64,000 bases of DNA from Paracoccaceae bacterium (GTDB lineage: Bacteria > Pseudomonadota > Alphaproteobacteria > Rhodobacterales > Rhodobacteraceae), in assembly GCA_020832445.1 (NCBI GenBank), contig JAFIEO010000030.1, positions 1 through 64,000 on the forward strand, written 5' to 3'. The notes beneath the pieces were generated by a model. It saw nothing but the letters and a program-made list of their open reading frames with translations. It was not told the origin of the DNA and made no database searches. The first letter of the stretch is position 1, and each line of letters opens with the position of its first letter. Shown piece after piece: positions 23,527 through 61,661 of this stretch. Position numbers and translations under genes: made by a program.

Positions 23527-23530
23527 GGCA

Positions 23531-41052: not shown

Positions 41053-41955
41053 ATGCGCGTTATCTTCATGGGCACGCCGGATTTTTCGGTTGCCGCACTT
41101 GATGCAATCCATGCCGCGCATGATGTCGTGTGCGTCTATACCCAGCCCCCGCGCCCTGCGGGCCGTGGCAAACAGCCCCGCCCGACGGCGGTGCATGCGC
41201 GCGCCGATGCACTTGGCCTGCCTGTGCGCCACCCCGTCAGCCTGAAGGATGCACAGGCGCAGGCCGAATTTGCAGCCCTTGGCGCGGATGTGGCCGTAGT
41301 GGTGGCCTACGGGCTGATCCTGCCGCAAGCTGTGCTGGATGCGCCGCGCATGGGCTGCCTGAATATCCACGCCTCGCTTCTGCCGCGTTGGCGGGGGGCG
41401 GCGCCGATCCAGCGTGCGATCATGGCAGGCGATGATGACACCGGCATTTGCATCATGCAGATGGAAGCGGGGCTGGATACAGGGCCGGTTCTGCTGTTTG
41501 ACTCCACCCCCATTGGCGACGATGACACCGCCCAGACCCTGCATGACCGCCTGTCGCAGATGGGTGCGGGGCTTATTGTCCGCGCGCTTGACCGCCTGCC
41601 CGACCTGACGCCCCAACCGCAGCCCGAAACGGGCGTCACCTATGCCGCCAAGATCGACAAGGCCGAAGCCCGCATTGACTGGACGCGCCCCGCTGATGAG
41701 GTTGCACGCCAGATCCGCGCGCTGTCGCCCTTTCCGGGCGCATGGTGCGAAACCCCGTTGGGGCGGCTGAAACTGCTGCAAGCGCAGGCCGTTGACGGAA
41801 CCGGCGCACCGGGCGAAGTGCTGACAGGGCTGACAATCGCCTGCGGCAAGGGGGCGGTGCAGGTGACTGACGTGCAACGCGAAGGCAAGCGCGCCATGTC
41901 AGCGGCGGAACTGCTGCGTGGGGCGGGGTCCGTGACAGGTGTGGTTTTCAGCTAA
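41053..41955 (+). CDS. fmt: Methionyl-tRNA formyltransferase
   Basis: A 300-residue formyltransferase that makes fMet-tRNA with 10-formyl-THF. The catalytic triad is visible in the [17 protein letters not shown] motif (Asn and His) and in GLDTGPVLL (Asp). The C-terminal OB-like domain is present. The start directly follows the def2 stop, completing the def-def2-fmt operon. Confidence 0.96.
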
Positions 41956-44631: not shown

Positions 44632-44897
44632 ATTGCACCACCCCACATGGCAACGAGTAACCGAAATTCATTTCGCTTAATGTTCTTATTATCTCATAGT
44701 TTGCGGGATTCTCACAGCGGTATCCGGCAAACCCGCAGGTGAATCTGGGAAACTAGTTAACGCCGGTCATGGAAAAATAGGCTTTTCTTGGTGCCGTAAA
44801 TGGTCTATCCGGCGCGCCTGTGCCTTTGGCATGGTATAACGGCCCTGCTGGACGACATCCCGGCCTGCGCCAAAACCCTAATACACAGGAGATCCCG

Positions 44898-45222: not shown

Positions 45223-45374
45223 TTTCAGGCAGTCCGCCCGCAGATAGGGCAAAAGTGACAGCATATGGCCGTTAAATTGCCTTATTTCTGTCGCCAAACA
45301 GCGCCATACGCTGATACATATCACGATAAGGAAACAATCGCGTTCTAGAAGTGCGTCCGGTGGCAGGTATGATT

Positions 45375-46256
45375 ATGGTAAACACGCGAAAGCTGGAACA
45401 GCTTATGAAGCGTTCGGGACCGGCCAGAACACCTGGCAAGGGGCAGCCGGATACCATGCCGGTGCGGCGCGGACTTGCACTTTCGGGCGGTCCTGCGCAG
45501 CGCAATGATATTGCCAGCCCCCCTGCCGAAGCGCCTGTCGTTCCATGGAATGCCGAGGCGTGGGACCACCTTGATGCGGTTACCCCCGACACCCGCGTGG
45601 AAAAAAACGTTCGTTTATTCAACCAACACGCCCGCACCCCGGCGGTGACGGCAATGTTTGATGTCTTGCGCACCCAGCTTGTGCAGACCTTTCGCAAACG
45701 CGGCTACCGCTGTCTGGGGATCGCATCGCCCTATGCAGATGCAGGCGCCAGTTTTGTCACTGCCGGGCTTTTGGCCAGTTTCGCGCGGCGCTCTGATCTG
45801 CATGTCGTAGGGCTTGACCTTAATTTTGCCGACCCCGCCCTGCACCGCTATTTCGAAGCGGTGCCAAACGGGCCTATCCTGCCTGCGCTGACGGGTGAAA
45901 TCCCGATAGAATCGCATCTGCGGCGCGCCAATTCGGCGCTGGCCCTTGGGTTCAACCAGCCCGCCCCCCAAACCGCGCAAGGCAACGCCGCATTCCCCGC
46001 CGAGGATTTTGCAGATTTCGTGCAGGATATTCTGGGCTTTATTGCACCGGATTTCATTATCTGCGACCTGCCCCCCCTGCTAAAGGGTGACACGGCCATG
46101 AACCTTCTTCCGGGGATCGATGCGGTTCTGGTGGTTTCCGACAGTCGCAAAACCAGCGCCGAAGATATTGCAGCCTGTGAACGGGTGCTGGACGATCAGG
46201 CGGCGTTTCTTGGCGTTGTGATGAACCGCGCAGCCGCCGCACCAGAGGGGCGCTGA
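45375..46256 (+). CDS. CpsD/CapB-like (BY-kinase-like) protein without P-loop lysine
   Basis: A 293-residue soluble protein related to bacterial tyrosine kinases and ParA/MinD-type ATPases that accompany Wzz proteins. The Walker A region reads SPYADAGAS (residues 118-126), with Ala125 where the catalytic lysine belongs. The Walker A'-like segment VVGLDLNFADP keeps Asp148. IICDLPPLLKGD is the later family motif. There is no tyrosine-rich tail. It is therefore probably inactive as a kinase. ATG 45375 is favoured by GGCAGG at proper spacing; in-frame GTG 45351 and ATG 45369 lack this. It is the first gene of the cluster. Confidence 0.75.
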   Translation: MVNTRKLEQLMKRSGPARTPGKGQPDTMPVRRGLALSGGPAQRNDIASPPAEAPVVPWNAEAWDHLDAVTPDTRVEKNVRLFNQHARTPAVTAMFDVLRTQLVQTFRKRGYRCLGIASPYADAGASFVTAGLLASFARRSDLHVVGLDLNFADPALHRYFEAVPNGPILPALTGEIPIESHLRRANSALALGFNQPAPQTAQGNAAFPAEDFADFVQDILGFIAPDFIICDLPPLLKGDTAMNLLPGIDAVLVVSDSRKTSAEDIAACERVLDDQAAFLGVVMNRAAAAPEGR

Positions 46257-46258
46257 CA

Positions 46259-47545
46259 ATGGGTCCGATACAGTCCCTTGCCGAACTTTACGGCTTCGTG
46301 CGTCGCCGCCTTGACCTGTTGCTTGTCACAGTGGGAATCGGCACCATCGTCGCGGCGGCTTTGGCGCTGCAAACCACCCCTGTGTACCAGTCACATACAG
46401 TCCTGTCAGCGCGCCTGAATACTGTTTCCGGCGAATTTGCCGGTATGACGGGCGTTCAGAATGCGCCCGTGCGCCTGCTGCAACTGGTGGAACAGCGCCT
46501 GACAACGCGTGAAAACATGCTTGCGCTGGCCGACAAATATGATCTTTACCCCGGCCTGCCGACCCAGGAACGGGTCGAGGCCACGCGCGCATCCATCACA
46601 TTTTTAAGCAGCGAGGCCGTGACAATCGGGTTTGCCCGCGATGGAATGCTGTCCTCGATCGTTGTGCAAGCGCGCGCTGACAATGGCGCAAAAGCTGCGA
46701 ACATCGCCAATGAACTGGCCACCATGATCATTGCCGAAACCGGTGCCGGACGAGAGGCCCGCGCGCGCGAAACCTTGTCGTTTTTGCGCGAACGTCTGGA
46801 ACGTAATGAAGCCAGCCTGCGCGAAGTCGAGGCAGAACAACGCGCCTTCGCAGCCCTGCACCCCGACGCGATGCCCTTCAATGTGGAACTGCGCCGTTCT
46901 GAATTGCTGCAACTGACCACAGCAATTCAATCCACCGAAGCCGAAATCGTAGCACTGGAATCAGAACTGGCGGCACAAAACCGCCAAGGCAGCACCCAGC
47001 GCAGGCTTGCGCAGCTTGGTGACCAGCTGGTCACGCGCCAGGCCGAACTTGACCGGCTGAATGCACGCCGCGACGAACTGGAGCCGTTTTTCACCCGCGT
47101 GGCCGAGATCGAACGCGATCAGGCCGCGATTGCGCAACGCGAAGAACGTCTACAGGACAGTTTACGCGATATTTCCGACCAGATCGCCAGCGCTGAAACC
47201 AATCTGCGGCTGGAAACGGGCCAGCAGATTGCCGCGTTCGAGGTTCTGGAACCCGCGACACCTGCGGAATATCCAATGTCGCGCAGCCGCAAGGTCACTA
47301 TGCTGATGGGGGTGTTCGGCTCGGTTGTTCTGGCGGTCATGGCGGCATTCGCATATGAGGTGTTGCGCCCTGCATTGCGCAGTGCGGGACAGGTTGAACG
47401 CGAAACCGGCATGCGCCCTGTTCTGGTCTTGCCAGAACTGGTTTTGCCATCTGAGCGGCGGCGCATACGCATCGCGCGCCTTGCCGGGCTGGCGTTGTTT
47501 GTCCTGGCATTGGCAGCAACGCTTAGCCCCCTGATCCAGCAATAG
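46259..47545 (+). CDS. Wzz/GumC-like chain-length determinant protein
   Basis: A 428-residue polysaccharide co-polymerase of the Wzz/GNVR type. A first membrane helix (residues ~18-38) leads to a long periplasmic coiled coil (~150-320, heptad-rich with many Glu, Arg and Ala). Two C-terminal helices follow (near VTMLMGVFGSVVLAVMAAFA and LAGLALFVLALAATLSPLI). The protein has no fused kinase domain; the separate CpsD-like protein is encoded 2 bp upstream. Such pairs regulate the length and export of exopolysaccharide chains. Confidence 0.85.
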   Translation: MGPIQSLAELYGFVRRRLDLLLVTVGIGTIVAAALALQTTPVYQSHTVLSARLNTVSGEFAGMTGVQNAPVRLLQLVEQRLTTRENMLALADKYDLYPGLPTQERVEATRASITFLSSEAVTIGFARDGMLSSIVVQARADNGAKAANIANELATMIIAETGAGREARARETLSFLRERLERNEASLREVEAEQRAFAALHPDAMPFNVELRRSELLQLTTAIQSTEAEIVALESELAAQNRQGSTQRRLAQLGDQLVTRQAELDRLNARRDELEPFFTRVAEIERDQAAIAQREERLQDSLRDISDQIASAETNLRLETGQQIAAFEVLEPATPAEYPMSRSRKVTMLMGVFGSVVLAVMAAFAYEVLRPALRSAGQVERETGMRPVLVLPELVLPSERRRIRIARLAGLALFVLALAATLSPLIQQ

Positions 47546-47563
47546 CGCGGGGGGTATCCAGCC

Positions 47564-49048
47564 ATGCCCAACGCCATTGCCTATACCGCACTTCTGATCT
47601 GGCCATTGATCATCGTGGTGATGTTTCGCAAAATGTCACCGGAACGCGCCTTTATCTGGGCCATTCTGGGCGGGTATATGGTGCTGCCGGAACTGACCGA
47701 AATCAACGTGCCGGTCATTCCCGCGTTCGACAAGACATCGATTCCCAACCTGACGGCATTCGCGCTTTGTCTGGTGATGCTGAACATGCGTCCCCGTTTG
47801 TTGCCCGACGGCCTGCTGGGCAAGGTATTGGTGGTTGCGCTGTGCACAGCGCCGGTGATTGCAGTGTTTTTCAACACCGACCCGCTGGAATTCGGAACCA
47901 CACAAAGCGGTCGCCTGACCATGACAGGCGAATATACGACATCTGTTCCGGGCATGCGCATTTACGATTCCGTGTCCATTCTGGTGCGGCAGCTTATCAT
48001 GATCCTGCCCTTCTTTCTGGCGCGTCACCTGCTGGCCAGCGAACAGGCATTAACCGAACTGCTGCGCGCACTGATGATTGCGGGCCTGATTTATTCTGTT
48101 CCAATCCTGTGGGAAGTCCGCTTCAGCCCGCAGCTGCACACCAATATCTATGGTTTTTTCCAGCATGATTTCAGTCAGATGATACGCCAGGGCGGGTTCC
48201 GGCCTATTGTTTTCATGCCGCACGGGCTGTGGTTGTCGCTGTTCATGGTCATGACCGCTGTTTCTGCACTGCATTTTGCAAAACAGGCCACACCGTCGGA
48301 CCGGATGCGCGCCATCATCATCGCAGCATTCCTGTTCGCAATGGTACTTCTGACCAAAAGCCTTGGGCCGTTGTTAATCCTGCTGTGCGTGTCTGCGCTG
48401 GTGATCTTTCTGAAGCCCAGGATGCAGCTGCGCATCGCAGGTCTGGCGGCCCTTCTGGCCCTAAGCTATCCGTTGTTGCGCGGTGCGGGGCTGGTTCCCA
48501 CAGACAGGTTTGTCGCGCTGGCCAATGCGCGCAGTCCGGAACGGGCGCAATCGTTGCAATTCCGGTATGACAACGAAGACATGCTGCTGGACCGCGCAGC
48601 CGAGAAACTGTTCTTTGGCTGGGGCGGATACGGGCGCAATCAGATTTTCGACGCCGACACCGGCCAGATGATATCTGTCAGCGACGGGCAATGGGTCATC
48701 ACCATCGGGCAATGGGGCTGGGTGGGGTATCTGGCATTGTTCGGGCTGTTATGCCTGCCATTGCTGGCGCTGTGGTGGCGGTATCGGATGGTGCCTGACA
48801 GTGCAATTCCCCCACAGGCGGGCGTTCTGGCGCTGATACTTGGGGCCAGTCTGGTGGACCTGCTGCCCAATGCCACGCTGGTTTCGCTGACATGGCTGAT
48901 TGCAGGCGCACTGCTGGGGCATGCCGAATTGCAGCACCGGCGCAGCCGCACGGCCCAACTGGAACACTGGCGCAATTTGCCTGGCCGCACCGGGCTTATG
49001 GCAGCCGCGCGAACACCCGAACCCGCCCTGAAACGCAGCTTTCTGTAA
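47564..49048 (+). CDS. O-antigen polymerase/ligase-like (Wzy/WaaL-type) membrane protein
   Basis: A 494-residue protein with about ten to twelve hydrophobic segments and a large periplasmic loop around residues 320-390. Its position behind the Wzz gene and its overall layout fit the Wzy/WaaL O-antigen polymerase family, whose primary sequences are poorly conserved. It would polymerise repeat units in the periplasm. GGGGGG sits before the ATG. The 38-bp gap to the PKS gene suggests continued transcription. Polymerase versus ligase cannot be settled from the sequence. Confidence 0.72.
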   Translation: MPNAIAYTALLIWPLIIVVMFRKMSPERAFIWAILGGYMVLPELTEINVPVIPAFDKTSIPNLTAFALCLVMLNMRPRLLPDGLLGKVLVVALCTAPVIAVFFNTDPLEFGTTQSGRLTMTGEYTTSVPGMRIYDSVSILVRQLIMILPFFLARHLLASEQALTELLRALMIAGLIYSVPILWEVRFSPQLHTNIYGFFQHDFSQMIRQGGFRPIVFMPHGLWLSLFMVMTAVSALHFAKQATPSDRMRAIIIAAFLFAMVLLTKSLGPLLILLCVSALVIFLKPRMQLRIAGLAALLALSYPLLRGAGLVPTDRFVALANARSPERAQSLQFRYDNEDMLLDRAAEKLFFGWGGYGRNQIFDADTGQMISVSDGQWVITIGQWGWVGYLALFGLLCLPLLALWWRYRMVPDSAIPPQAGVLALILGASLVDLLPNATLVSLTWLIAGALLGHAELQHRRSRTAQLEHWRNLPGRTGLMAAARTPEPALKRSFL

Positions 49049-49086
49049 GGGCTGCAACACAACCGCAACTGAAAAGCGCATATATC

Positions 49087-52000
49087 ATGACTGACCTACC
49101 CGACCAATTCAGCGAAAACGACATTGCCGTTATCGGCATGGCCGCGCATTTGCCGGGGGCGGGGTCTGTCGTTGAATTCTGGGAAAACCTGCGCGCGGGC
49201 CGCAGCGCCATTCGCAAGCTAAGTGAAGCCGAACTTCTGGAAGGGGGGGAAGCCGCCGCGACCTTGCGCAAGCCCAACTATGTGCCCCATGCCGCCACGC
49301 TGGACGGTTTTGCGGAATTTGACCCCGATTTCTTTGGCTTTTCCCCCAAGGAAGCGGCCATTCTGGACCCCCAGCACCGCCAGTTTCTGGAAGTGGCGTG
49401 GGAAGCGTTCGAGGATGCAGGCCATCCGCCCGCCGCATTCCCCGGCCCTGTGGGGGTGTTTTCCGGCTGTGGTATGGGCAGTTATTTCTATTTCAACCTG
49501 TGCTCAAACCCGCATCTGGTTGATGATGTTGGCATGTTCCTGTTGCGCCATACGGGCAATGACAAGGATTTTCTGGCCACCCGTGTCAGCCATATTTTCG
49601 ATTTGCGCGGCCCGTCGGTCAATGTGCAGACGGCGTGTTCCACATCGCTTGTTGCGGTGCATTATGCGGTGCAATCGCTGCTGACAGGGGAATGCGACAT
49701 GGCGCTTGCAGGCGGCGTGACAATCGAATTGCCCCATGGGCGCGGCTATCTGTTCAAGGAAAACGAAATCCTGTCGCCAGACGGGGAATGCCACGCATTC
49801 GATCACCGCGCGCAAGGCACGGTCTTCGGGTCGGGCGCGGGCGCTGTGGTGCTGCGCCGCCTGTCCGACGCACTGCGCGATGGCGACCGCATCATTGCCG
49901 TGATCAAGGGCAGTGCGGTCAACAATGACGGCGCCGCCAAGGCGGGCTATCTGGCGCCGTCAGTCGAAGGGCAGGCCGCCGCCGTGGCAGAGGCGCATCT
50001 GGTCGCAGGCGTGTCCGCCGACAGCGTGTCCTATATCGAATGCCACGGCACAGGCACATATCTGGGCGATCCCATTGAAATTGCCGCACTGACGCAGGCA
50101 TTTTCTGCAACCACCGACAAGACCGGCTTTTGCCGCATCGGGTCGGTGAAAACCAATATCGGCCATCTGGACACCGCCGCCGGTGTGGCCAGCCTGATCA
50201 AGGTGGCCTCCGCGCTGGAACACCGCGAATTGCCCCCCAGCCTTGGATATGAAGCGCCCAACCCCGCGATTGATTTTGCCAGCACCCCCTTTGTCGTCAA
50301 TGACCGCCTGTCACCGTGGCAGGGTGACGCGCCGCTGCGCGCGGGCGTCAATTCGCTGGGCGTGGGCGGCACAAATGCCCATGTCATTTTGCAAGAAGCG
50401 CCCGCGCGCGTGCCCTCAGATGCAAGCGACTGGCCCTTCCAGCTTCTGACCCTGTCGGCGCGCAGCAAGCCCGCGCTGGAGGATACCGCGCGCAACCTTG
50501 CAACCCATTTGCGCGCCCATCCCGACCAGCCGCTGGCCGACGTGGCCTTTACCCTGCGCGAAGGGCGCACGGCATTTGCCCAGCGCCGCGTTGTCGTGGC
50601 CGAAACCCATGAAGATGCCGCCACACTGCTGGATGCCGACAACCCCGCCCGCGTGTTTACCCATACGGCGCTGGATAACCCCGACATGGTGTTCATGTTC
50701 CCCGGCGGGGGCGCGCAATATGCGGGCATGGCGCGCGAATTATATGAAACCGAGCCGGTCTTTGCGGAATGGATGGATCGGGGGCTGGCCCATCTGCAAC
50801 CCAAACTGGGCTATGACCTGCGCGCGTTGTGGCTGCCTGAACCCCAAGATATGGAACACGCAACCACGGCCTTGAAGCGCCCGTCCGTGCAATTGCCGCT
50901 GATCATGATGACCGAATATGCGCTGGCGCAGTTGTTCATCGACTGGGGCGTAACCCCGTCAGTGCTGGTCGGCCATTCCATGGGCGAAAACACGGCCGCC
51001 GCGCTGGCGGGGGTCATCGGGTTTGAAGATTGCATCGATCTGGTGCATCTGCGCGGGCAGTTATTCGACACGGTGCCCGCAGGCGGCATGCTGTCCGTGC
51101 CGCTGTCACTGGATGCGTTGCGCCCCTATCTGGGGCCGGATCATGACATTGCATCGCTGAACGCGCCGGAACTGACCGTCATATCCGGCCCGCAAGCAGC
51201 ACTTGACCAGCTGGACGCGGCGCTACGTGCAGATGACATTACCGCCCAGCGCGTGCCCATCGACATTGCCGCCCATAGCCGCATGCTGGACCCCATTCTG
51301 GGGCAATTCCGCGCGTTCTTGCAGGGCGTGCCCCTGAACGCGCCGCGCCTTCCCGTCATTTCCAACCGCACCGGCCAGCCGCTGACACCGCAGCAGGCCT
51401 GCGACCCCGAATATTGGGTGCAACATCTGCGCAATACGGTCCTGTTTGGCGATTGCATCACCACATTGGCCGCCCGTCCCAACCGCATCTATCTGGAAAT
51501 GGGGCCGGGCAAGGCGCTGTCATCGCTGACGCGCATGAACGGGGCCGTGCCGGGGCAACAGGTGCTGTCCGTTCTGCGCCACCCTGACGAAGACATTGCC
51601 GATGATCTGTATCATATGGGCACGCTTGGGCGCATCTGGGCGCTGGGCGGGCAGTTTGACTGGGCGCAGATCTGGGGCGACGCGCGGCGCCAGCGCGTGC
51701 GCCTGCCCACATACCCGTTCCAGCGCGCGCGCTATTTCATTGAACCGGGCAGCACCAGCGCCGCCGATACCCCCGCGCTGGACCGTATTGATGATGTCAC
51801 CGGGTGGGGTTTTGCCACCGGCTGGAAACCGGCCTATGCCGATTGCGATATCGATGTGACGCGCGATTTGTCCACCCTACCCGACACATGGCTGATTTTT
51901 GCAGATGATGCGGTCATTGCGGCACCGGTTATCGCGCAACTGCGTGGCAGCGGCGCGCGCGTGATCGACGTGCATGCGGGCGACACATTCGCGCGCAAAT

Positions 52001-55000
52001 CCGCAGACAGTTATACACTGGCCCCCGAACAGGGCGCTGACGGGTATATGCAGCTTCTGCAAGAACTGATCGCGGATGGCGTGACCCCCACCCGCATCGG
52101 GCATTTCTGGCTTGCGGACCCGCGCGACACCTTCAGGCCCGGCTCCAGTGCCATGCACCGCAATATGGAACAGGGGTTTTATTCCCTGCTGTATCTGGCG
52201 CAGGCCATCCAGTCCGAAAACCTGCCCCTGCCCGTTCATCTGTGCATCATCACCACCGGCGCACAAGCGCTGAACGGGCAACCGCTGGCCCACCCTGAAA
52301 AGGCCATGATCGCAGGCCCCGCGCGCGTGGCCCCGCGCGAAATGCCGGGCCTGACCTGCGCCACGCTGGATATTGATGTGGCCAGCACTGACCTGACGCA
52401 AACCCTGCTGGAAGAGTTATGCGCCACACCCGCCAACACCACCGCCTTGTTGCGCGGCCAGCGGCGCTATGTCCAGACCATCCGCCCCGCGCCCTTGCCG
52501 GATGAATTGCCGGACCTGCCAGACGGCGCGCATTGGGTTATTACCGGCGGTTTCGGCGGCATCGGCCTGACACTGGCCGAAGCGCTGATTACAAAAAGCG
52601 CCGCGCGCATTACCCTGATCAGCCGCTCACCCATGCCCGCCCGTGATGATTGGGACGGGTGGCTGGCCGCCCATTCGCCCGCAGACCAGACCAGCCGCCG
52701 CATTCAGGCCATAGGGCGGCTGGAATCCCTTGGCGGGCGGGTCCATGTTGCCTGCGCCGATGTGTGCAATATTGATGATATGCGCCGCGCGCTGGACGGT
52801 GCGCGCGACACCTTCGGCGCACCCTACGGGCTGATCCATGCGGCGGGCCATATCGCTGATGCGCCCCTTCTGGGCAAATCCCCCGCCGATGTGGAAGATG
52901 TGCTGGCCCCCAAACTGCACGGGCTTCAGGTGCTGGACGCATTGCTGCCCGATGGCACGCTGGATGTGATGGTGCTGTTTTCATCCACATCCACGCTGAC
53001 CACCCCTGTGGGTCAGGTGGATTATGTGGCCGCGAATGAATACCTGAACGCGTTTGCGCGGGCGCGCACTGGTGGAAAAACCCGCGTGCTGTCGCTGAAC
53101 TGGGGCGTGTGGGCAGATGCTGGCATGGCCGCTGACGCAATGGCCGCACGTCTGGGCCAGACGCCCGCTGTCCCCGCGATGCCCTGCGCACAGCCCCTTT
53201 ATGACGCGATGGATTTTGATGCCGCAGGCAACCGCCGCCTGACCCTGCATCTGGATACAAGCCATTGGATTGTGGACCAGCACCGCACCAGTGACGGAAC
53301 CGCCATTCTGCCCGGCACCGCCTATCTGGACCTGTGCGCGCAGGCGCTACGCGCGCAAGGCGAAACCGGCCCGTTTGAATTGCGCGATATCTGGCTGTTG
53401 CGCGCGTTAAGCGTGGCGGATGACAGCCCGCGCAAGCTGCGCGCGACATTGGCGCGCAACACCACAGGCTATGATTTCACCCTGCGCAGCGATGTCCGCC
53501 ATGGCGGGGCCACAGGGTATGTGCTGAACGCGCGCGCAAATGTGGTGCCGGGCACGCCGGATACACCCGCCCCGATAGACCCAGCCGCCATTGCCGCGCG
53601 CTGCCCCGATGTGACCGAAGGTGCCGGCCTGCGCACCCCGCAAGAAGCGCATCTGAAGTTCGGCCCGCGCTGGCGCGTCATTACCCGCACCGCCTATGGC
53701 ACTGGCGAAGGGCTGGCGCATCTGGAACTGCCTGCCGCGTTTCAGGGTGATCTGGACGCGGGCCATGTGCTGCACCCCGCGCTGATGGATCTGGCCACCG
53801 GTTGGGCCATGGGGCTGATACCGGGCTATCAGGCCCGCGCGCTTTGGGTGCCGGTGTCCTATGACAGCGTGACGGTCTTTGCCGATCTGCCCGCGCGGAT
53901 TGTCAGCCACGCGCGCCTTTGCCCCGACACAGGCACCGACACGGGCACGGGGTTTGCCAGTTTCGATTTGACGCTGGCCTCACCGGACGGGCGCGTGCTG
54001 GTCGAAATCCGGCGCTTCACCATCAAGCAGTTGACCGATACAGCCTTTGGCGATGCGCCCCCCCTGCGCCCGTCCGAGGTGGAACGCGAAACCGCCACCA
54101 ACACCGCCCTGTCCCCCGCAGAAGAACGCCTGCGCGACATGCTGGGCCTTGGGATTACCGCACCGGAAGGCGCACATGCCTTCCTGCGCGCCCTGCGGTC
54201 GGACCATGCGGCCTTTGTGGTGTCGTCCATCGACCCGCGCGCGCTGATCGCGCAAGCCGATCACGACGTCATTGCCAAGCCCCAGACCAAATTCGACCGC
54301 CCCGACCTTGGCACCCAGATGGTTGCGCCACGCAACGATATTGAACGCCGCCTGACAGAATTCTGGCAGGATTTGCTGGGTGTGGACCAGATCGGGGTTG
54401 AAGACAACTTCTTCGATCTTGGCGGGCATTCGCTGATTGCCGTGCGCCTGTTTGCGCAGGTCAAGAAAGCCTATCAGGTGGATTTCCCCATATCTGTGCT
54501 GTTTCAGGCCCCCACCATCGCGGCCTGTGCGGCCATGATTGCCGAACAGACAGGGCTGGACCCTGACGCGGACGGCGCGCTGCCGCACACCGACCAGCCC
54601 GCACGCGCGGCATTCACCCATCTGGTGCCAATGGACGGCCAGAACAACACCGCGCAGACGCCGTTTTTCCTTGTGGCAGGCATGTTCGGCAATGTGCTGA
54701 ATCTGCGCCATCTTGCACTGCTGATCGGGCGGGACAGGCCGTTTTACGGGCTACAGGCGCGCGGGTTGCTGGGCGGTGATGCCCCCCATGACCGTATCGA
54801 GGACGCGGCGCACGATTACATTGCCGAAATGCGGCAGGTGCAACCACATGGCCCCTATATGCTGGGCGGGTTTTCTGGCGGCGGGATTACAGCCTATGAA
54901 ATTGCCCGCCAGCTGGAAGCAGCGGGCGAAAAGGTCGATCTGGTAGTTCTGCTGGACACGCCCCTGCCCCTGCGCCCTGCCCTGACGCGCACCGACAAGG

Positions 55001-55437
55001 CGCTGATAAAGCTGGCCGAATTGCGCCGTAAGGGGCCGGGATATGTGCTGGAATGGTGGCGCGCACGGCAGGCATGGAAGCGCCAGCTTGCCACTGGCCC
55101 CGCCGCTGACAGCGATGATGCCTTCCATAACACCGCGATCGAGGCGGCGTTTCGCCGCGCGGTGGCCGCCTATCAGGTGCAGCCATGGGATGGTAATCTG
55201 GTTCTGTTCCGCCCGCCGCTGGATCACCACTGGAAAGTGTCGGGTGGCAACTGGGTCAGCAGCCAGCGTGAATATGTATTCCCTGACAATGACTGGACGC
55301 GCCACGCCCCGAACCTGCGCGTGATCGAGGTGCCGGGCGATCATGACAGCATGGTTCTGGAACCCAATGTCCGCGTTATGGTGTCAAGATTGCGCGGCCT
55401 GATGCCCGCAGCCCACATAAAACAAGCGGCCGAGTAG
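49087..55437 (+). CDS. Type I polyketide synthase KS-AT-KR-DH-ACP-TE
   Basis: A 2116-residue single-module PKS. KS (residues ~8-435) has Cys184 in TACSTSL and His320 and His360 in CHGTG and NIGHLD. AT (~535-880) has Ser631 in GHSMGE; its specificity motif (AAHS) is ambiguous. KR (~1148-1350) has TGGFGGIG at 1153 and Ser1299/Tyr1313/Asn1317. A DH double hot-dog (~1385-1650) follows with His1399 and Asp1568. ACP has Ser1782 in GGHS. TE (~1850-2116) has Ser1930 in GFSGG and His2086. KR precedes DH, unlike the usual order, and there is no ER. It should add one extender, reduce and dehydrate it, then release the acid or amide. Confidence 0.92.
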   Translation: MTDLPDQFSENDIAVIGMAAHLPGAGSVVEFWENLRAGRSAIRKLSEAELLEGGEAAATLRKPNYVPHAATLDGFAEFDPDFFGFSPKEAAILDPQHRQFLEVAWEAFEDAGHPPAAFPGPVGVFSGCGMGSYFYFNLCSNPHLVDDVGMFLLRHTGNDKDFLATRVSHIFDLRGPSVNVQTACSTSLVAVHYAVQSLLTGECDMALAGGVTIELPHGRGYLFKENEILSPDGECHAFDHRAQGTVFGSGAGAVVLRRLSDALRDGDRIIAVIKGSAVNNDGAAKAGYLAPSVEGQAAAVAEAHLVAGVSADSVSYIECHGTGTYLGDPIEIAALTQAFSATTDKTGFCRIGSVKTNIGHLDTAAGVASLIKVASALEHRELPPSLGYEAPNPAIDFASTPFVVNDRLSPWQGDAPLRAGVNSLGVGGTNAHVILQEAPARVPSDASDWPFQLLTLSARSKPALEDTARNLATHLRAHPDQPLADVAFTLREGRTAFAQRRVVVAETHEDAATLLDADNPARVFTHTALDNPDMVFMFPGGGAQYAGMARELYETEPVFAEWMDRGLAHLQPKLGYDLRALWLPEPQDMEHATTALKRPSVQLPLIMMTEYALAQLFIDWGVTPSVLVGHSMGENTAAALAGVIGFEDCIDLVHLRGQLFDTVPAGGMLSVPLSLDALRPYLGPDHDIASLNAPELTVISGPQAALDQLDAALRADDITAQRVPIDIAAHSRMLDPILGQFRAFLQGVPLNAPRLPVISNRTGQPLTPQQACDPEYWVQHLRNTVLFGDCITTLAARPNRIYLEMGPGKALSSLTRMNGAVPGQQVLSVLRHPDEDIADDLYHMGTLGRIWALGGQFDWAQIWGDARRQRVRLPTYPFQRARYFIEPGSTSAADTPALDRIDDVTGWGFATGWKPAYADCDIDVTRDLSTLPDTWLIFADDAVIAAPVIAQLRGSGARVIDVHAGDTFARKSADSYTLAPEQGADGYMQLLQELIADGVTPTRIGHFWLADPRDTFRPGSSAMHRNMEQGFYSLLYLAQAIQSENLPLPVHLCIITTGAQALNGQPLAHPEKAMIAGPARVAPREMPGLTCATLDIDVASTDLTQTLLEELCATPANTTALLRGQRRYVQTIRPAPLPDELPDLPDGAHWVITGGFGGIGLTLAEALITKSAARITLISRSPMPARDDWDGWLAAHSPADQTSRRIQAIGRLESLGGRVHVACADVCNIDDMRRALDGARDTFGAPYGLIHAAGHIADAPLLGKSPADVEDVLAPKLHGLQVLDALLPDGTLDVMVLFSSTSTLTTPVGQVDYVAANEYLNAFARARTGGKTRVLSLNWGVWADAGMAADAMAARLGQTPAVPAMPCAQPLYDAMDFDAAGNRRLTLHLDTSHWIVDQHRTSDGTAILPGTAYLDLCAQALRAQGETGPFELRDIWLLRALSVADDSPRKLRATLARNTTGYDFTLRSDVRHGGATGYVLNARANVVPGTPDTPAPIDPAAIAARCPDVTEGAGLRTPQEAHLKFGPRWRVITRTAYGTGEGLAHLELPAAFQGDLDAGHVLHPALMDLATGWAMGLIPGYQARALWVPVSYDSVTVFADLPARIVSHARLCPDTGTDTGTGFASFDLTLASPDGRVLVEIRRFTIKQLTDTAFGDAPPLRPSEVERETATNTALSPAEERLRDMLGLGITAPEGAHAFLRALRSDHAAFVVSSIDPRALIAQADHDVIAKPQTKFDRPDLGTQMVAPRNDIERRLTEFWQDLLGVDQIGVEDNFFDLGGHSLIAVRLFAQVKKAYQVDFPISVLFQAPTIAACAAMIAEQTGLDPDADGALPHTDQPARAAFTHLVPMDGQNNTAQTPFFLVAGMFGNVLNLRHLALLIGRDRPFYGLQARGLLGGDAPHDRIEDAAHDYIAEMRQVQPHGPYMLGGFSGGGITAYEIARQLEAAGEKVDLVVLLDTPLPLRPALTRTDKALIKLAELRRKGPGYVLEWWRARQAWKRQLATGPAADSDDAFHNTAIEAAFRRAVAAYQVQPWDGNLVLFRPPLDHHWKVSGGNWVSSQREYVFPDNDWTRHAPNLRVIEVPGDHDSMVLEPNVRVMVSRLRGLMPAAHIKQAAE

Positions 55438-55442
55438 CACCC

Positions 55443-56426
55443 ATGAACGCAAGCGTCCTGACCATCATCGTCAATTACAAAAGCGCCGAAATGACACTGC
55501 AATCCGCGCAGGCAGCAGATCGCGCCATGCAAGATATCGACGGCGCGATCACCATTATCGACAATGACAGTCAGGACGGGTCTTTTGATTTCCTGCGCGA
55601 TCACACCCGCGACATGCCACGCGTCCGGGTGCTTCAGTCCGGCCATAACGGGGGGTTCGGCTTTGGCAATAATGTGGCCATCCGCGCCGCCATGGCAGAC
55701 GGGCCGCAACCTGATTTCATCTATTTGCTGAACCCTGATGCCTTTCCTGACCCTGATGCGATAATGCTGCTGCGCGATCATATGCTGGCGCACCCCCAGA
55801 CGGGCTTTGCAGGCAGTGCTGTTCGCGGTGATGACGGCGCCCCGCATGAAGTGGCCTTTCGCTTTCCGACAATCTGGTCGGAATTCGAAGCGGCGGCCAA
55901 TACCGGCGCGGTGACCAGACTGCTGCAAAATTACCGCGTTCCCATAGGCTTTCCGCAAAGCACATGCGCGGTGGATTGGTGTTCTGGCGCCAGTGTGATG
56001 TTCCGTCGCACTATGCTGGACCAGATTGGCCTGTTTGACGAAACCTTTTTCTTGTATTTTGAAGAGACAGAGTTGTGCCACCGTGCACGCGCCGCAGGCT
56101 GGACAGGCATGCATCTGCCACAGGCCAGTGTCATGCATATCGGGTCCGTGTCGACCGGCATGAAGAAGAAATCGCGCGTGCCGCGCTATTGGTTCAATTC
56201 GCGCGCGCATTATTTTCGCAAGACGGGTGGCGCAGGATATCTGGCGCTTGCGACACTGTTCTATGTGCTGGGTGCATCCATTTGGAAAATGCGCAGGCTT
56301 GTCGAACAGAAAGAGGATCGAATTCCGCCATATTTTCTCCGTGATCTTGTGGCACACACATTGCGAACACTTATGCCGGGCGTATCGGCAAATCGTGGGC
56401 GGACAGGGGCGCAGAACGCGCCCTGA
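55443..56426 (+). CDS. GT2 family glycosyltransferase (WbbL/rhamnosyltransferase-like)
   Basis: A 327-residue GT-A glycosyltransferase. LTIIVNYKSAEMT opens the nucleotide-sugar fold, IDNDSQDGS follows, and LLNPDAFPDPDA contains the metal-binding aspartates. GLFDETFFLYFEETELCHRA is the acceptor and catalytic region typical of WbbL-like rhamnosyl or mannosyl transferases. A weak amphipathic or membrane segment lies near the C-terminus. It lies 5 bp after the PKS gene and 13 bp before the NRPS gene, so the sugar transfer step is built into the same operon. The sugar is not predictable. Confidence 0.85.
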   Translation: MNASVLTIIVNYKSAEMTLQSAQAADRAMQDIDGAITIIDNDSQDGSFDFLRDHTRDMPRVRVLQSGHNGGFGFGNNVAIRAAMADGPQPDFIYLLNPDAFPDPDAIMLLRDHMLAHPQTGFAGSAVRGDDGAPHEVAFRFPTIWSEFEAAANTGAVTRLLQNYRVPIGFPQSTCAVDWCSGASVMFRRTMLDQIGLFDETFFLYFEETELCHRARAAGWTGMHLPQASVMHIGSVSTGMKKKSRVPRYWFNSRAHYFRKTGGAGYLALATLFYVLGASIWKMRRLVEQKEDRIPPYFLRDLVAHTLRTLMPGVSANRGRTGAQNAP

Positions 56427-56439
56427 AAAGGGGTAGTGT

Positions 56440-59400
56440 ATGCTGTTTTCAAGTGTTGTTGTTGGCGATGAAAGCCTGGCTGCGGAATGCAGCAATCAAC
56501 TGTTGGCGCGCGGACACACGATCTCGGCTGTCGTTACTGCCAATGCACAGCTTGCTGACTGGGCTGCCAGCCATGCGATTGCAGTCATTTCCCCCGGTGC
56601 CGGGCTGGCCGACCGGCTGGCGGGGCTTCAGTTCGACTGGCTGCTGAATATCGCGGGGCTGCGCGTACTGCCGCCCGAAGTGCTGGCGCGTCCCTCTCGG
56701 GGCGCGGTAAATTTCCATGACGGGCCGTTGCCACGCCATGCGGGGCTGAACGCCCCTGTCTGGGCGTTGATGGCCGGAAATGCACAGCACGGCGTCACAT
56801 GGCACATGATCACCGAACGCGTTGATCAGGGCGATATTCTGGCCCGCGCGGGGTTTGACATCACCGATGATGACACGGCACTGACCCTGAACGCAAAATG
56901 CTTTGCCGCAGGCTTGGATAGCTTCGCGCAGGTGCTGGACATGCTGGAACGCGGACAGCTCACACGCCAGCCGCAGGACAAAACCGCGCGCAGCGTGCAT
57001 CTGCGCAATGACCGCCCCCCCCATGACGGCTTGCTGGATTTCACGCGACCCGCACCGGAACTGGAACGCATGGTGCGCGCGCTTGATCACGGGCCATACT
57101 GGAACCCGCTAAGTGCGGCCAAGCTGCGCCTTGGCGCGCAGCTGGCCTGTATCGGCACAGCGCGGCTGGTATCCGGCCAGGGACAGGCCGGTCAGGTGCT
57201 GGATGTGGACGCAGACGGCGTGAGCGTGGCTTGCGGGCAGGGCACGGCACTGCATCTGTCAGGTTTGCTGTGCGTGCAAGGTGTGCCCGTCAACCCGATG
57301 CAGCATGTGAAATTAAACGACATTCTGGCCGCGCCCCCCGAAGGTGTCACACAGGCCATGACGCGCATTGTCGGGGGCGACCAGCATTGGCGCAATGCCT
57401 TGCGCGCCATGGTCCCCGCCACCCGGCTTGCGCCCCAATCCGACACCCGCGACACGCTGGCGCTTGATCTGCCGGACATGCCAGAGGCGCACACCATTAC
57501 TGCATTCGGCACCGCACTGGCGCGCCATTTCGGCCTGTCCCGTATCGATCTGGCATGGCGCAATACCGCCATTGCCAAGGCCGCAGCGGCCGCGCCCGAC
57601 CATATTTCGGGATGGGTGCCCGTGCAGGTTGATGTGCACTGCGCAAACCCCGCAGCAGAAGTCGGCAACCGCCTGAAACTGGCCAGATCTGCACCCGGTT
57701 TTGCGCGCGACATCAGCGCACGCGATCCGGCCCTTGGGATGATCGATGCGCCGCATGCCGCTGTGGTCTATGGCGCAGATGCGCGCAGCGCCGCGATTGT
57801 CCTTGATCTGGGCGCAAATCAGGGCACGGGCGAATTGCGCTATGATCCGGCGCTGCTCGGCGGCGCGGATGCGGCGCGTATCAAGGCCATGATCACAACG
57901 CCGCAGCCCGCGGCAGATGACATGACGCGCCTGAACGACACCGCCCGCCCCTATGACCGCATATGCATCCATCATGCGTTTGAAGCGCAGGTTCAAAAAA
58001 CGCCGGACGCCATTGCGCTAAGTTTTGAAAACCAGTCCCTGACCTATGCAGACCTGAACGCGCGCGCCAACCGCGTAGCGCATGTGCTGGCGGATATGGG
58101 CGTTGGCCCTGATACGCCGGTGGCGCTGTGCACGGCGCGCGGGCCGAACCTGCTGATTGGCGCGCTTGGTATCCTGAAGGCGGGTGGTGCCTATGTGCCG
58201 CTTGACCCCGCCTACCCCGCCGACCGGCTGGCGCATTACTTAAACGACTCCGCCGCGCCTGTTGTGGTAAGCGAACATGCGCAGCTGGACATCCTGCCCG
58301 ACCATAGCGCGGCGCTTTTGCAACTGGACACGGACACGCGGCTGGGTGTGGCACCCGACACCAACCCCGACTGTGCCGCCACGCCTGACAATCTGGCCTA
58401 TCTGATCTATACATCCGGTTCCACCGGTGCGCCCAAAGGCGTGATGGTCGAGCATGGAAATGTCGCCAATTTCTTTGCAGGTATGGACGACTGTGTCCGG
58501 CATGACCCCCCCGGCGTCTGGCTGGCTGTCACATCGCTTAGTTTTGACATTTCGGTTCTGGAACTTTTCTGGACACTGGCGCGGGGATTCAAACTTGTCC
58601 TGATGGGCGATGAGGACCGCACCGCAGTGTCGCGCGGGCCAGTGCGCGTGTCCGACAAGGCCATGGAATTCAGCCTGATGTATTGGGGCAATGATGACGG
58701 GCAGGGACCGCAGAAATACCGCCTGCTGCTGGAAGGCGCGAAATTCGCCGACACGCACGGGTTTTGCGCGGTCTGGACCCCTGAACGCCATTTCCATGCC
58801 TTTGGCGGGCCGTTCCCCAACCCGTCGGTTTCCGGCGCTGCGGTGGCGGCGGTCACACAAAATCTGGCTGTGCGCGCAGGGTCTTGCGTGGCGCCGCTGC
58901 ACCATCCGGTGCGCATAGCCGAAGAATGGGCCATGATCGACAACCTGACCAACGGGCGCACGGGCCTGGGCATTGCGTCAGGCTGGCATCCGGTGGATTT
59001 TGTCATTCGCCCCGAAAACCGGCCCCCGAACAACAAAAAAGCCATGTTCGAAATGATCGACACGCTGCGCAAACTGTGGCGCGGCGACACTGTCGAATTT
59101 GACAAAGGTGACGGGCCGGTGCCTGTGCAAACACTGCCCCGTCCGGTGTCGCGGGAATTGCCGATCTGGCTGACAACGGCGGGCAACCCCGAAACATGGC
59201 GCGAAGCCGGTCACCTTGGGGCGAATGTGCTGACCCACCTGCTGGGCCAATCCATTGCCGAGGTGGCCGAGAAGATCACCGTCTATCACACCGCCCTGCG
59301 CGAGGCGGGCCATGACCCTGCCGATTTTACCGTAACCCTGATGCTGCACAGCTTCGTTGCGCGCGACCGCGACCATGCGCGCGAAGTGGCACGCGGCCCG

Positions 59401-60984
59401 ATGAAATCCTATCTGCTGGCGGCAGCGGGACTGGTGAAACAATATGCATGGGCCTTTCCGGCGTTCAAACGCCCGCAGGGTGCCAAAAACCCCATGGATA
59501 TTGACCTGTCATCCCTGTCGCAGGACGAAGTGGACGGCATTCTTGATTTCGCCTTCAACCGCTATTTTGAAGACTCCGGCCTGTTCGGCACGGTCGATGA
59601 TTGTCTGGACCGGGTCGAGCAACTCAAGGCGATCGGCGTGACCGAAATTGCCTGCCTGATTGATTACGGCATCAACACCGATCAGGTTCTGGAAGGGCTG
59701 TTTCCGCTGGCCGAGGTGGTCAAGCGCGCCAATGCTGGGCTGGATCTGCCGGATGATGATTTCTCGATCGCGGCACAAATTCACCGCCACAAGGTCACGC
59801 ATCTGCAATGCACACCGTCCATGGCGCGCATGCTGGTCATGAATGACGACAGCCGCGCCGCACTTGCCAAAGTCGGCAATGTCATGATCGGCGGCGAGGC
59901 GTTGCCGGGTGTTCTGGCGCGCGACATTGCGCAACTGACCGGCCAGCCGGTATTGAACATGTATGGCCCGACAGAAACCACCATCTGGTCCACAACCCAC
60001 CCCACCAAGGGCGGCACCGGCATTGTGGAAATCGGCACGCCTATTGCCAACACGCAGGTTTATATCCTTGATGATGATTTCCAGCCCGCCAACGAGGGCG
60101 AATTGTTCATTGGCGGCGACGGGGTTACGCGCGGTTACTGGAACCGGGCAGAGCTGACAAAAGACCGCTTCATTGCAAACCCGTTTGGCATGGGTCGGCT
60201 GTATCGCACCGGTGATCTGGTGCGTCGGGGGGCTGACGGTATCCGGTTTCTGGGCCGTGTCGACCATCAGGTAAAAATTCGCGGTCACCGCATTGAACTG
60301 GGCGAGATTGACGCGGCCCTTGATGCGCAGCCCGGCATTACCGCCGCTGTTGCCATCGCCCGCGAGGACCGCGACGGCGACATCCGGTTGGTGGCCTATT
60401 ACACTGGCAGCCCTGCGGGCGATCTGCGCGCCGCACTGGCGCAGCGCCTGCCCGCGCATATGGTGCCCGCGCATTTTGTGCCGTTGGCCGAAATGCCCCT
60501 GACCCCCAACAAGAAGATCGACCGCAAGGCCCTGCCTGCACCCGCCGCCGCGCAACAACCCGCACAAAACGCGGCCATTGTGGCACCTGCGGGGGCAGAT
60601 AACGACACGGCGGGCCAGATTGCCGCCATCTGGTGCGATGTGCTGGGTATCGCACAGGTTAATCCGTCGGATAACTTCTTTCACCTGGGGGGGCATTCGC
60701 TTCTGGCCGTTCAGGCGCACCGCGAAATGCGCGCCCGCCTGAACATACCCGGCCTGTCCATCACGGATTTGTTCCGCTTTCCGGTGCTGGGCGAACTTGC
60801 GCGCCATCTGGACAGCAAACTGCGCCCGCTTGCCGCGGTTCGTATTCCCGCCCCCGTTCAGCAATCGGGTAGCCCGACGCCGCCCCACGCTGCGCCACCC
60901 GCGCCGCAACCGGCGCCAGCGGACAGAATGCAGGCCATGGCCAAACGGCGCGCCATGCGCGCAGAAAGGACCGGCAGAGGATGA
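56440..60984 (+). CDS. NRPS: formyltransferase-(C remnant)-A with luciferase-like monooxygenase insert-T
   Basis: A 1514-residue protein. Residues ~1-190 are a 10-formyl-THF-type formyltransferase with Asn91, His93 and Asp129 of the catalytic triad. A small C-terminal subdomain ends near 290. Residues ~300-495 resemble the second half of a condensation domain but have no HHxxxDG. The adenylation domain starts near 508 with YTSGSTGAPKG at ~657. A ~365-residue flavin-dependent luciferase-like monooxygenase (~735-1100) is inserted, then A resumes with YGPTETTIW (~1170) and ends NKKIDRKAL. The carrier has Ser1420. The specificity residues read D-I-L-Q-M-G-M-I-W-K, which is close to the glycine code. 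There is no thioesterase. Confidence 0.9.
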   Translation: MLFSSVVVGDESLAAECSNQLLARGHTISAVVTANAQLADWAASHAIAVISPGAGLADRLAGLQFDWLLNIAGLRVLPPEVLARPSRGAVNFHDGPLPRHAGLNAPVWALMAGNAQHGVTWHMITERVDQGDILARAGFDITDDDTALTLNAKCFAAGLDSFAQVLDMLERGQLTRQPQDKTARSVHLRNDRPPHDGLLDFTRPAPELERMVRALDHGPYWNPLSAAKLRLGAQLACIGTARLVSGQGQAGQVLDVDADGVSVACGQGTALHLSGLLCVQGVPVNPMQHVKLNDILAAPPEGVTQAMTRIVGGDQHWRNALRAMVPATRLAPQSDTRDTLALDLPDMPEAHTITAFGTALARHFGLSRIDLAWRNTAIAKAAAAAPDHISGWVPVQVDVHCANPAAEVGNRLKLARSAPGFARDISARDPALGMIDAPHAAVVYGADARSAAIVLDLGANQGTGELRYDPALLGGADAARIKAMITTPQPAADDMTRLNDTARPYDRICIHHAFEAQVQKTPDAIALSFENQSLTYADLNARANRVAHVLADMGVGPDTPVALCTARGPNLLIGALGILKAGGAYVPLDPAYPADRLAHYLNDSAAPVVVSEHAQLDILPDHSAALLQLDTDTRLGVAPDTNPDCAATPDNLAYLIYTSGSTGAPKGVMVEHGNVANFFAGMDDCVRHDPPGVWLAVTSLSFDISVLELFWTLARGFKLVLMGDEDRTAVSRGPVRVSDKAMEFSLMYWGNDDGQGPQKYRLLLEGAKFADTHGFCAVWTPERHFHAFGGPFPNPSVSGAAVAAVTQNLAVRAGSCVAPLHHPVRIAEEWAMIDNLTNGRTGLGIASGWHPVDFVIRPENRPPNNKKAMFEMIDTLRKLWRGDTVEFDKGDGPVPVQTLPRPVSRELPIWLTTAGNPETWREAGHLGANVLTHLLGQSIAEVAEKITVYHTALREAGHDPADFTVTLMLHSFVARDRDHAREVARGPMKSYLLAAAGLVKQYAWAFPAFKRPQGAKNPMDIDLSSLSQDEVDGILDFAFNRYFEDSGLFGTVDDCLDRVEQLKAIGVTEIACLIDYGINTDQVLEGLFPLAEVVKRANAGLDLPDDDFSIAAQIHRHKVTHLQCTPSMARMLVMNDDSRAALAKVGNVMIGGEALPGVLARDIAQLTGQPVLNMYGPTETTIWSTTHPTKGGTGIVEIGTPIANTQVYILDDDFQPANEGELFIGGDGVTRGYWNRAELTKDRFIANPFGMGRLYRTGDLVRRGADGIRFLGRVDHQVKIRGHRIELGEIDAALDAQPGITAAVAIAREDRDGDIRLVAYYTGSPAGDLRAALAQRLPAHMVPAHFVPLAEMPLTPNKKIDRKALPAPAAAQQPAQNAAIVAPAGADNDTAGQIAAIWCDVLGIAQVNPSDNFFHLGGHSLLAVQAHREMRARLNIPGLSITDLFRFPVLGELARHLDSKLRPLAAVRIPAPVQQSGSPTPPHAAPPAPQPAPADRMQAMAKRRAMRAERTGRG

Positions 60985-61661
60985 TCCAACAACGCTTTTG
61001 CCTTGCAGAATATGCCCGCCCCCTGTTCAGCGACAGGGTTGCCATGGGCTGGGCCGACCCAAAGGCCCCCATGCCGCGCCTGATGGGTGACGAAGTGCTG
61101 GCCATTGAACAGGTTGCCGCCCGACGCGCGCGCGAATTTGCCGCCGGACGCGCCGCTGCACGCAGCGCCATGGAACAGCTTGGCCATATGCCGCGCCCCG
61201 TGCTGCACGGCGATGATCGCGCGCCCATCTGGCCCGCTGGTATGACAGGGTCCATCACGCATACCGACCATGACGCGCTGGCCGTGGTGACAGACGACCC
61301 CGCCATTCTGGCCCTTGGCCTTGATATGGAACCCACCGCCCCGTTGGAGCCGAACCTGTGGCCGGTCATCTGCACGCAGAATGATCTGCTGTGGCTGGCG
61401 GGGCTTGGCCCGACCCAGCGCGGGAATTTTGTGAAGCTTTTATTCTCGGCCAAGGAGGCAGTTTACAAGGCGCAGTATCAGATCAGCCGGTGCATGCTGG
61501 ATTTTCACGCCCTTGACCTGACACCCGATCTGGCATCTGGCCGCTTTGTCGCAACGTTACGTCAGGACGTGCCGCATCTGCCCGAGGGCACCCGATTCGA
61601 TGGCCGCTTTTCGATTCTTGCCAACTCCATCATCACAGCCGTCGAAATACATCGTGGCTAA
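60981..61661 (+). CDS. 4'-phosphopantetheinyl transferase (EntD/Sfp-type)
   Basis: A 226-residue Sfp/EntD-type transferase that would load phosphopantetheine on the PKS and NRPS carriers. GSITHTDHDALAV, the metal-binding LGLDMEP and FSAKEAVYKAQ are in proper order. Its start overlaps the NRPS stop by 4 bp (ATGA), so it is translated together with it. No other PPTase lies near, and its presence supports the two carriers being active. Confidence 0.93.
   Translation: MIQQRFCLAEYARPLFSDRVAMGWADPKAPMPRLMGDEVLAIEQVAARRAREFAAGRAAARSAMEQLGHMPRPVLHGDDRAPIWPAGMTGSITHTDHDALAVVTDDPAILALGLDMEPTAPLEPNLWPVICTQNDLLWLAGLGPTQRGNFVKLLFSAKEAVYKAQYQISRCMLDFHALDLTPDLASGRFVATLRQDVPHLPEGTRFDGRFSILANSIITAVEIHRG

Follow-up and report, generated by a model that had tools for sequence, protein, structure and literature searches.

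Known starter modules and the module in the window

In the loading modules of LgrA and CongA, a formyltransferase (F) domain is fused to an adenylation (A) domain and a peptidyl carrier protein (PCP) and formylates the amino acid bound to the carrier. Extension in linear gramicidin requires this prior formylation, and in conglobatin the F-A(Gly)-PCP starter CongA, for which glycine is predicted, feeds a polyketide synthase (PKS) (PMC4504003; for this and the other papers cited, our statements are limited to excerpts). A second kind of module, found in the myxothiazol/melithiazol and corallorazine-like systems, carries a monooxygenase within an adenylation domain that recruits glycine; the embedded enzyme hydroxylates the alpha carbon, after which the N–C bond breaks and glyoxylate is left on the carrier (PMC11342130; myxothiazol chemistry is also treated in PMC9396620). 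We analyzed a 64,000-nucleotide stretch of a Paracoccaceae bacterium genome (assembly GCA_020832445.1, contig JAFIEO010000030.1, positions 1 to 64,000; hereafter, the window), in which one nonribosomal peptide synthetase (NRPS) protein of 1514 amino acids (positions 56440–60984, plus strand, reading frame open throughout) combines features of both kinds. Like a formylating initiation module, it has an F domain with an intact N-H-D triad fused to A-PCP and no functional upstream condensation domain; like the myxothiazol type, it has a luciferase-like monooxygenase (LLM) inside the A domain, together with a glycine-type pocket. We propose that this protein is a starter module feeding a neighboring PKS and that the two together build a C4 formamido acyl group destined for an exopolysaccharide, a reading to which we assign a probability of about 0.47.

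Unlike LgrA and CongA, the window protein carries a monooxygenase in its A domain and a partial condensation domain between F and A, and its context is a polysaccharide-type gene block. Unlike the myxothiazol-type modules, which we compared by description and in which alpha-hydroxylation cuts the chain, it has a formyltransferase and no upstream condensation domain. Each part is known, while the combination and its apparent use look new. The open-licence literature that we searched, mostly as titles and abstract beginnings, contained no description of an F-A(monooxygenase)-PCP starter and, as a weak negative, no PKS/NRPS line of such a kind tied to a polysaccharide. Literature combining formyltransferase, luciferase-like monooxygenase, adenylation domain and NRPS gave no match, and no title on hadacidin biosynthesis was among those listed from the hadacidin literature (titles and abstract beginnings).

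Domain architecture and active sites

Pfam and NCBIfam profiles, together with alignment, bore out the composition described by the initial annotation, a single protein combining a formyltransferase that retains its Asn-His-Asp triad, an adenylation domain, an embedded flavin monooxygenase and a carrier. The F domain (residues 1–290, 56440–57309, plus strand; triad N91, H93 and D129) matched Formyl_trans_N at residues 58–158 (1.1e-18) and Formyl_trans_C at residues 194–272 (2.6e-5). Its closest solved relatives were methionyl-tRNA formyltransferase and ArnA, and by phmmer it lay nearer to Fmt/ArnA than to the F domain of LgrA; for the whole protein, LgrA was the best match in the Protein Data Bank (PDB). 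About 14.5 kb upstream (41053–41955, plus strand), the window encodes a separate formyltransferase of the methionyl-tRNA type, which has both Pfam parts and shares 33% identity with the F domain over 211 alignment columns.

The AMP-binding match (3.2e-86 for the whole protein) was split into two pieces, the better of which covered residues 514–727, and the monooxygenase is inserted between motif A4 (residue 701) and motif A5 (residue 1173), presumably the same insertion point as in the myxothiazol modules. The N-terminal piece of the A domain, including A4, spans residues 509–740 (57964–58659, plus strand), and the C-terminal piece, including A5, residues 1101–1365 (59740–60534, plus strand). 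The latter scored 172 bits against LgrA module 2, which we take to be a glycine module, and 150 bits against LgrA module 1. Between the two pieces, the luciferase-like FMN monooxygenase (residues 741–1100, 58660–59739, plus strand) matched Bac_luciferase at residues 752–1068 (5.8e-49) and the ‘MupA/Atu3671 family’ profile TIGR04020 at residues 744–1093 with 473 bits (cut-off 244.45). Its closest solved relative by sequence was PuwE of the puwainaphycin pathway (PDB 6ket, E 1.9e-105, query residues 2–349 of 359 aligned), which belongs to the same monooxygenase family and to a different assembly line. A peptidyl carrier domain (residues 1388–1460, 60601–60819, plus strand) with Ser1420 and a PP-binding match at residues 1393–1457 (2.3e-13) follows, and the Pfam and NCBIfam scans found no release domain, either thioesterase (TE) or reductase, on the protein.

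The linker between F and A (residues ~291–508, 57310–57963, plus strand) appears to be a truncated condensation-domain fold that is probably non-catalytic. An AF2 model of residues 286–510 had a pLDDT of 88.8, and its top Foldseek matches were NRPS condensation domains (E 7.8e-6, probability 1.00, TMq 0.55, TMt 0.32). Profile comparison with the condensation domain gave a probability of 12%, a search of the linker sequence against the PDB gave no match, and the Pfam Condensation profile did not match anywhere in the protein at E 0.001; the fold is truncated to ~220 residues. It is the model and the Foldseek search that point to a condensation identity. Because the module starts with F and has no full condensation domain, it would receive no peptide chain from an upstream module, unlike the myxothiazol type. 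Given the partial condensation fold of its linker, the protein may have descended from a C-A-PCP module in which C was cut down and a formyltransferase and a monooxygenase were gained. This partial fold (~286–510), the lack of a thioesterase, and the seven-gene block and polysaccharide context described below go beyond the initial annotation.

A scan of public genomes identified 76 related NRPS loci, and we aligned 71 proteins: those of the 65 loci with a query cover of at least 90%, the window protein and five further proteins. N91, H93 and D129 of the formyl triad were retained in 70, 70 and 69 of the 71, respectively. The pocket code of the window protein, read by motif alignment, is DILSMGMIWK, and every aligned protein had the form DILS[M/L/V/Y]G[M/L]IWK, with no other form present. 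This code is identical at 7 of 10 positions to DILQLGLIWK, which we take, with its pocket position numbering, as the reference glycine code; the resemblance to the glycine code noted earlier from the sequence is borne out, and glycine is the likely, but not proven, substrate of the A domain.

The NRPS was present in 57 of 149 genera of the same family, by a hand tally that takes in split or partial matches (e.g., G009, G022, G028, G085, G097, G114, G118 and G147). It was rarer in wider draws (E ≤ 1e-30, query residues 1–554), with matches in 10 of 385 genomes in a draw from the class and 15 of 398 in a draw from the phylum, counts that include family members and some other kinds of formyl-NRPS. 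Of the class-draw matches that fell outside the family, G454 and G382 were formyl-NRPS proteins of other kinds that did not match the monooxygenase profile, and G397 was cut. One relative on a contig of an assembled genome labeled ‘Verrucomicrobiales’ (L066) nests within the Hydrogenophaga branch of the tree, which is likely a binning error or a recent transfer.

Gene block and partner polyketide synthase

The NRPS gene is the sixth of seven genes on the plus strand (45351–61661), which are separated by 2, 18, 38, 5, 13 and −4 bases and which we infer to be co-transcribed. The block opens with a gene for a polysaccharide tyrosine-autokinase-like protein (45351–46256; TIGR03018, 4.2e-12), followed by a Wzz-like polysaccharide chain-length determinant (46259–47545; TIGR03007, 3.1e-20) and a Wzy/O-antigen-ligase-like membrane protein (47564–49048; Pfam Wzy_C, 26.3 bits against a cut-off of 31.7). 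Because each of these single scores is below cut-off, the names of the three proteins rest on the recurrence of the gene set among related loci. Next come a type I PKS (probable start 49087, in a frame that opens at 48892, to 55437), a family 2 glycosyltransferase between PKS and NRPS (55443–56426; profile match), the NRPS itself and a 4'-phosphopantetheinyl transferase identified by Pfam (60981–61661), whose gene overlaps that of the NRPS by 4 bases. None of the seven was named by Pfam or NCBIfam as a small-molecule exporter, resistance gene, regulator or CongE-like cyclodehydratase. Shortly before the block, on the minus strand, the window encodes a protein with RTX calcium-binding repeats (43627–44646).

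By Pfam, the PKS has the order ketosynthase (KS), acyltransferase (AT), psiKR, ketoreductase (KR), dehydratase (DH), acyl carrier protein (ACP) and TE. In an alignment of 60 PKS proteins (59 loci and the window), the KS, AT, KR-Tyr, DH, ACP and TE residues that we checked were invariant, apart from one gap at the TE histidine. The PKS accompanied the NRPS in 69 of the 76 loci, a match to the glycosyltransferase profile did so in 69 and one to the phosphopantetheinyl transferase in 67. Six of the seven loci without a PKS are contigs that break off at the NRPS gene or close to it; the seventh (L038) has no PKS in the stretch available. Two genes upstream of the NRPS, the KS of the PKS is the only acceptor in the block for a carrier-bound unit. 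With this acceptor in place, the PKS conserved and no release domain on the NRPS, hadacidin, which the initial annotation had put forward as the product of oxidation at nitrogen, is not supported as the product.

Orphan PKS and NRPS genes that lie two locus numbers apart, Inhi_1972 and Inhi_1974, have been listed for Phaeobacter inhibens, with no product stated in the excerpt (PMC4062626). This organism belongs to the same bacterial family, and the numbering leaves room for one gene between the two, as in the block; judging from gene order, they may be the same PKS-NRPS pair.

Association with polysaccharide genes

We scored the related loci for a set of polysaccharide-assembly genes (flippase, Wzz, Wzy, kinase, WecG, WcaJ-type, export and SGNH). 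At least one was present in 65 of the 76 loci and in all 56 of those that were 20 kb or longer; the 11 loci without any were stretches of 5.3–17.1 kb. Individually, wzz recurred in 45, the kinase in 43, wzy in 44 and a flippase (Wzx) in 36 of the 76. In a control of 20 NRPS loci from the same family that are not orthologous, 5 had polysaccharide-assembly genes. This control is tilted in favor of the link: the exopolysaccharide profiles derive from the ortholog loci, which extend to 26.8 kb, whereas control loci are no longer than 19.9 kb and three of them are short (5.3, 7.4 and 11.8 kb).

Co-occurrence with SGNH1, an SGNH esterase-like protein, is a better test of the polysaccharide link than this count. 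SGNH1 was detected (E ≤ 1e-40) in 30 of the 149 genera, all 30 of which were NRPS-positive (Fisher p 5e-16, kinship ignored). In 9 of the 30, including the window’s own genome, the two genes were not within 20 kb of each other on one contig; some of these nine may reflect fragmented assemblies, while in G034 and G121 a single contig carries the pair, with over 160 kb between the two genes. In the window’s genome, genes for WecG, SGNH1 and a family 2 glycosyltransferase are adjacent on a second contig (C27). The GHSL motif and D-x-x-H pair of SGNH1 were invariant in 21 aligned proteins, and its structural model showed low-scoring similarity (E of roughly 6e-4 to 4e-3) to three kinds of protein: carbohydrate esterase family 3, PatB and an LPS acetyltransferase.

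Annotated plasmids offered a view independent of these scans. We examined five plasmid loci out of 16 records with at least 80% cover, and in four of them (Ruegeria, Shinella, Aminobacter and Paracoccus) the NRPS lies amid sugar-polymer genes, with glycosyltransferases in all four, a flippase in three, and a sugar transferase, export protein or O-antigen ligase in varying mixes. In the myxococcal relatives L044 and L038, an undecaprenyl-phosphate glucose phosphotransferase (533 bits in L044, cut-off 411) and an export protein are encoded within 5 kb.

Other assembly lines were also seen near genes of this type. A Hydrogenophaga locus with the NRPS (L012) encodes, at 18789–24800, a second assembly-line protein of 2003 amino acids (fatty-acyl-AMP-ligase, carrier, C, A, PCP, TE) and, upstream, an XrtA-associated-ATPase-like gene (277 bits, cut-off 324.5). 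Two of the non-orthologous control loci (L118 and L121) also lie close to Wzz-like and kinase-like genes, which might mean that NRPSs of other types serve polysaccharides as well.

Outer clade and natural variants

Four relatives (L100, L101, L113 and L086) form an outer clade with a tree support of 0.999. In this clade the module lies beside larger PKS/NRPS genes, as expected of a starter. The neighbors of L100 look polysaccharide-type, judging from sequence beginnings and weak profile matches, and in L101 the triad has F in place of H. L113 might have been read as a two-gene pair, a reading ruled out by the A-ACP-TE domains that continue from its PKS. Where the F-A(monooxygenase)-PCP module lies beside larger PKS/NRPS genes and no polysaccharide genes were recognised in the vicinity (L113 with L155, L086 with L156 and L157, and L153), it is probably the starter of an ordinary natural-product line.

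Two of the 71 aligned proteins, on separate branches of the tree, lack the monooxygenase; L084 ends before the insert and is uninformative in this respect. The first, L082 (3677–13953; with L106, G085 contig C42), keeps the formyl triad, the pocket and the carrier serine, and its PKS has no DH and a replaced KR tyrosine, which hints, from a single case, that oxidation, reduction and dehydration go together. It adjoins flippase-, Wzy-, WcaJ- and SGNH2-like genes. The second, L083 (9190–19515, G097 contig C17), retains the glycine pocket, the ACP serine and the TE residues and is still beside Wzz-, kinase-, glycosyltransferase- and phosphopantetheinyl-transferase-like genes. Its formyl triad and the active residues of KS, AT, KR and DH are replaced, the carrier serine has become tryptophan, and the PKS is split by one in-frame stop. 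With these residues lost, L083 does not count as a working glycine loader with ‘switchable chemistry’ and is probably a decayed copy.

Proposed pathway and alternative explanations

From the domains, intact active sites, gene block and conservation with polysaccharide genes, all read from the sequence, we infer the substrate, its formylation, the site of oxidation, the hand-over, a single extension and the attachment to a polysaccharide. Joining the F-A(Gly)-PCP and embedded-monooxygenase precedents gives a scheme of loading, formylation, hydroxylation, extension, reduction, dehydration and release. The A domain would load glycine onto the carrier, and the formyltransferase would cap its nitrogen; formylation of tethered glycine, the module logic suggested from the outset, has its precedent in LgrA and CongA (PMC4504003). 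The inserted flavin monooxygenase would then hydroxylate the alpha carbon. Nitrogen and carbon had both been considered as the site of oxidation, and because the precedent acts on the alpha carbon (PMC11342130), we retain the carbon option and do not favor nitrogen. The carrier would pass an N-formyl-alpha-hydroxyglycyl unit to the neighboring PKS, which would add one malonyl-type unit, reduce and dehydrate, with the TE releasing or transferring the product. The predicted skeleton is a C4 4-formamido-4-hydroxybut-2-enoyl group, possibly closing to a butenolide. The line would be dedicated to an exopolysaccharide made by the kinase-, Wzz- and Wzy-like genes of the block together with the second locus (WecG, SGNH esterase-like protein and glycosyltransferase), and the acyl group would most likely decorate the sugar polymer.

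Several observations, besides the tilt of the locus control, weigh against this proposal. Chemically, a hydroxylated N-acyl-glycine may break down, by analogy with myxothiazol, and the AT loop of the PKS reads IAAHS, which leaves its specificity assignment unclear. Among the genes, the Wzy-, Wzz- and kinase-like matches all fall under curated cut-offs, no enzyme was identified for moving the product onto a sugar, and a flippase related to that of Ruegeria was not found in the window’s own genome in a single-query search that had no positive control. As to distribution, 27 of the 57 NRPS-positive genera lack SGNH1, and the Fisher test is blind to kinship. The Aliiroseovarius plasmid locus is not among polysaccharide genes, with an acetylxylan esterase and a glycosyltransferase within its 40 kb; L101 is an NRPS-PKS pair without a recognised polysaccharide gene in 47 kb; and in L113 (51 kb) and L086 (54 kb) the module sits in multi-module PKS/NRPS clusters with no polysaccharide genes recognised. 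These outer-clade loci indicate that ordinary PKS/NRPS lines use the module too and that the polysaccharide tie may have come later.

The same loci, three of them in the outer clade and one on the Aliiroseovarius plasmid, three of the four in larger PKS/NRPS clusters, speak for a diffusible product, in which the line would make a free C4 metabolite (a butenolide, or an oxazole as in conglobatin) acting as a signal or antibiotic, and the polysaccharide genes would be neighbors since both serve surface life. The intact TE at the end of the PKS and the CongA precedent, in which an F-A(Gly)-PCP protein starts a free polyketide (PMC4504003), are also in keeping with it. We nevertheless consider a diffusible product unlikely, given that all 56 long loci of the genome scan carry polysaccharide genes, that all 30 SGNH1-positive genera are NRPS-positive, and that no exporter, resistance gene, regulator or CongE-like cyclodehydratase was named among the seven block genes. 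Improbable, in our view, is a cleavage route, whereby alpha-hydroxylation would split the N–C bond, formamide would leave and the glyoxylyl-S-carrier would be the actual starter, from which extension would yield a 4-oxo acid. Embedded monooxygenases are reported to give just this cleavage to carrier-bound glyoxylate (PMC11342130), but the known cases, as described in the excerpts, cut an upstream chain, whereas here there is no upstream condensation domain and a formyl cap is present, and on this route the formylation would presumably be wasted.

Oxidation at nitrogen would instead give tethered N-formyl-N-hydroxyglycine, that is, carrier-bound hadacidin, and carry a hydroxamate into the product. 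In its favor, N-formyl-N-hydroxy groups occur in siderophores; the known siderophore N-hydroxylases, however, belong to a different flavin family, and monooxygenases embedded in glycine A domains are reported to hydroxylate the alpha carbon (PMC11342130), so we regard N-hydroxylation as quite improbable. Free hadacidin, with the module loading, formylating, N-oxidizing and releasing glycine as an antimetabolite, would account for a formyltransferase, a glycine-type A domain and a monooxygenase in one protein. It is very improbable, since the protein has no TE, the NRPS is conserved with the PKS and polysaccharide genes, and the relative L082 has lost the monooxygenase yet keeps the rest of the module; the missing release domain, the PKS partner and the C-hydroxylating precedent rule it out as our principal interpretation. 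Compared with free hadacidin, a small group destined for a surface polysaccharide is the likelier product.

Implications

If the proposal is correct, assembly-line enzymes, commonly regarded as antibiotic factories, also provide chemical groups that go into bacterial slime. We tentatively extend it to a broader idea: in at least two bacterial phyla, the NRPS-PKS line would make a non-sugar substituent that is built into a secreted polysaccharide, giving a polyketide-peptide-polysaccharide hybrid polymer. Its tailoring may differ from lineage to lineage: L082 has dropped oxidation, reduction and dehydration and yet retains the glycine pocket, the formyl triad and the carrier, along with polysaccharide genes. 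The protein itself would be a natural fusion of three predicted reactions (loading, formylation and oxidation) on one starter unit, which would be useful for engineering. For the family, the proposal would explain the NRPS-PKS pair in 57 of the 149 sampled genera (tallied by the NRPS), would link it to life on surfaces, and would provide a testable handle on the chemistry of polysaccharides.

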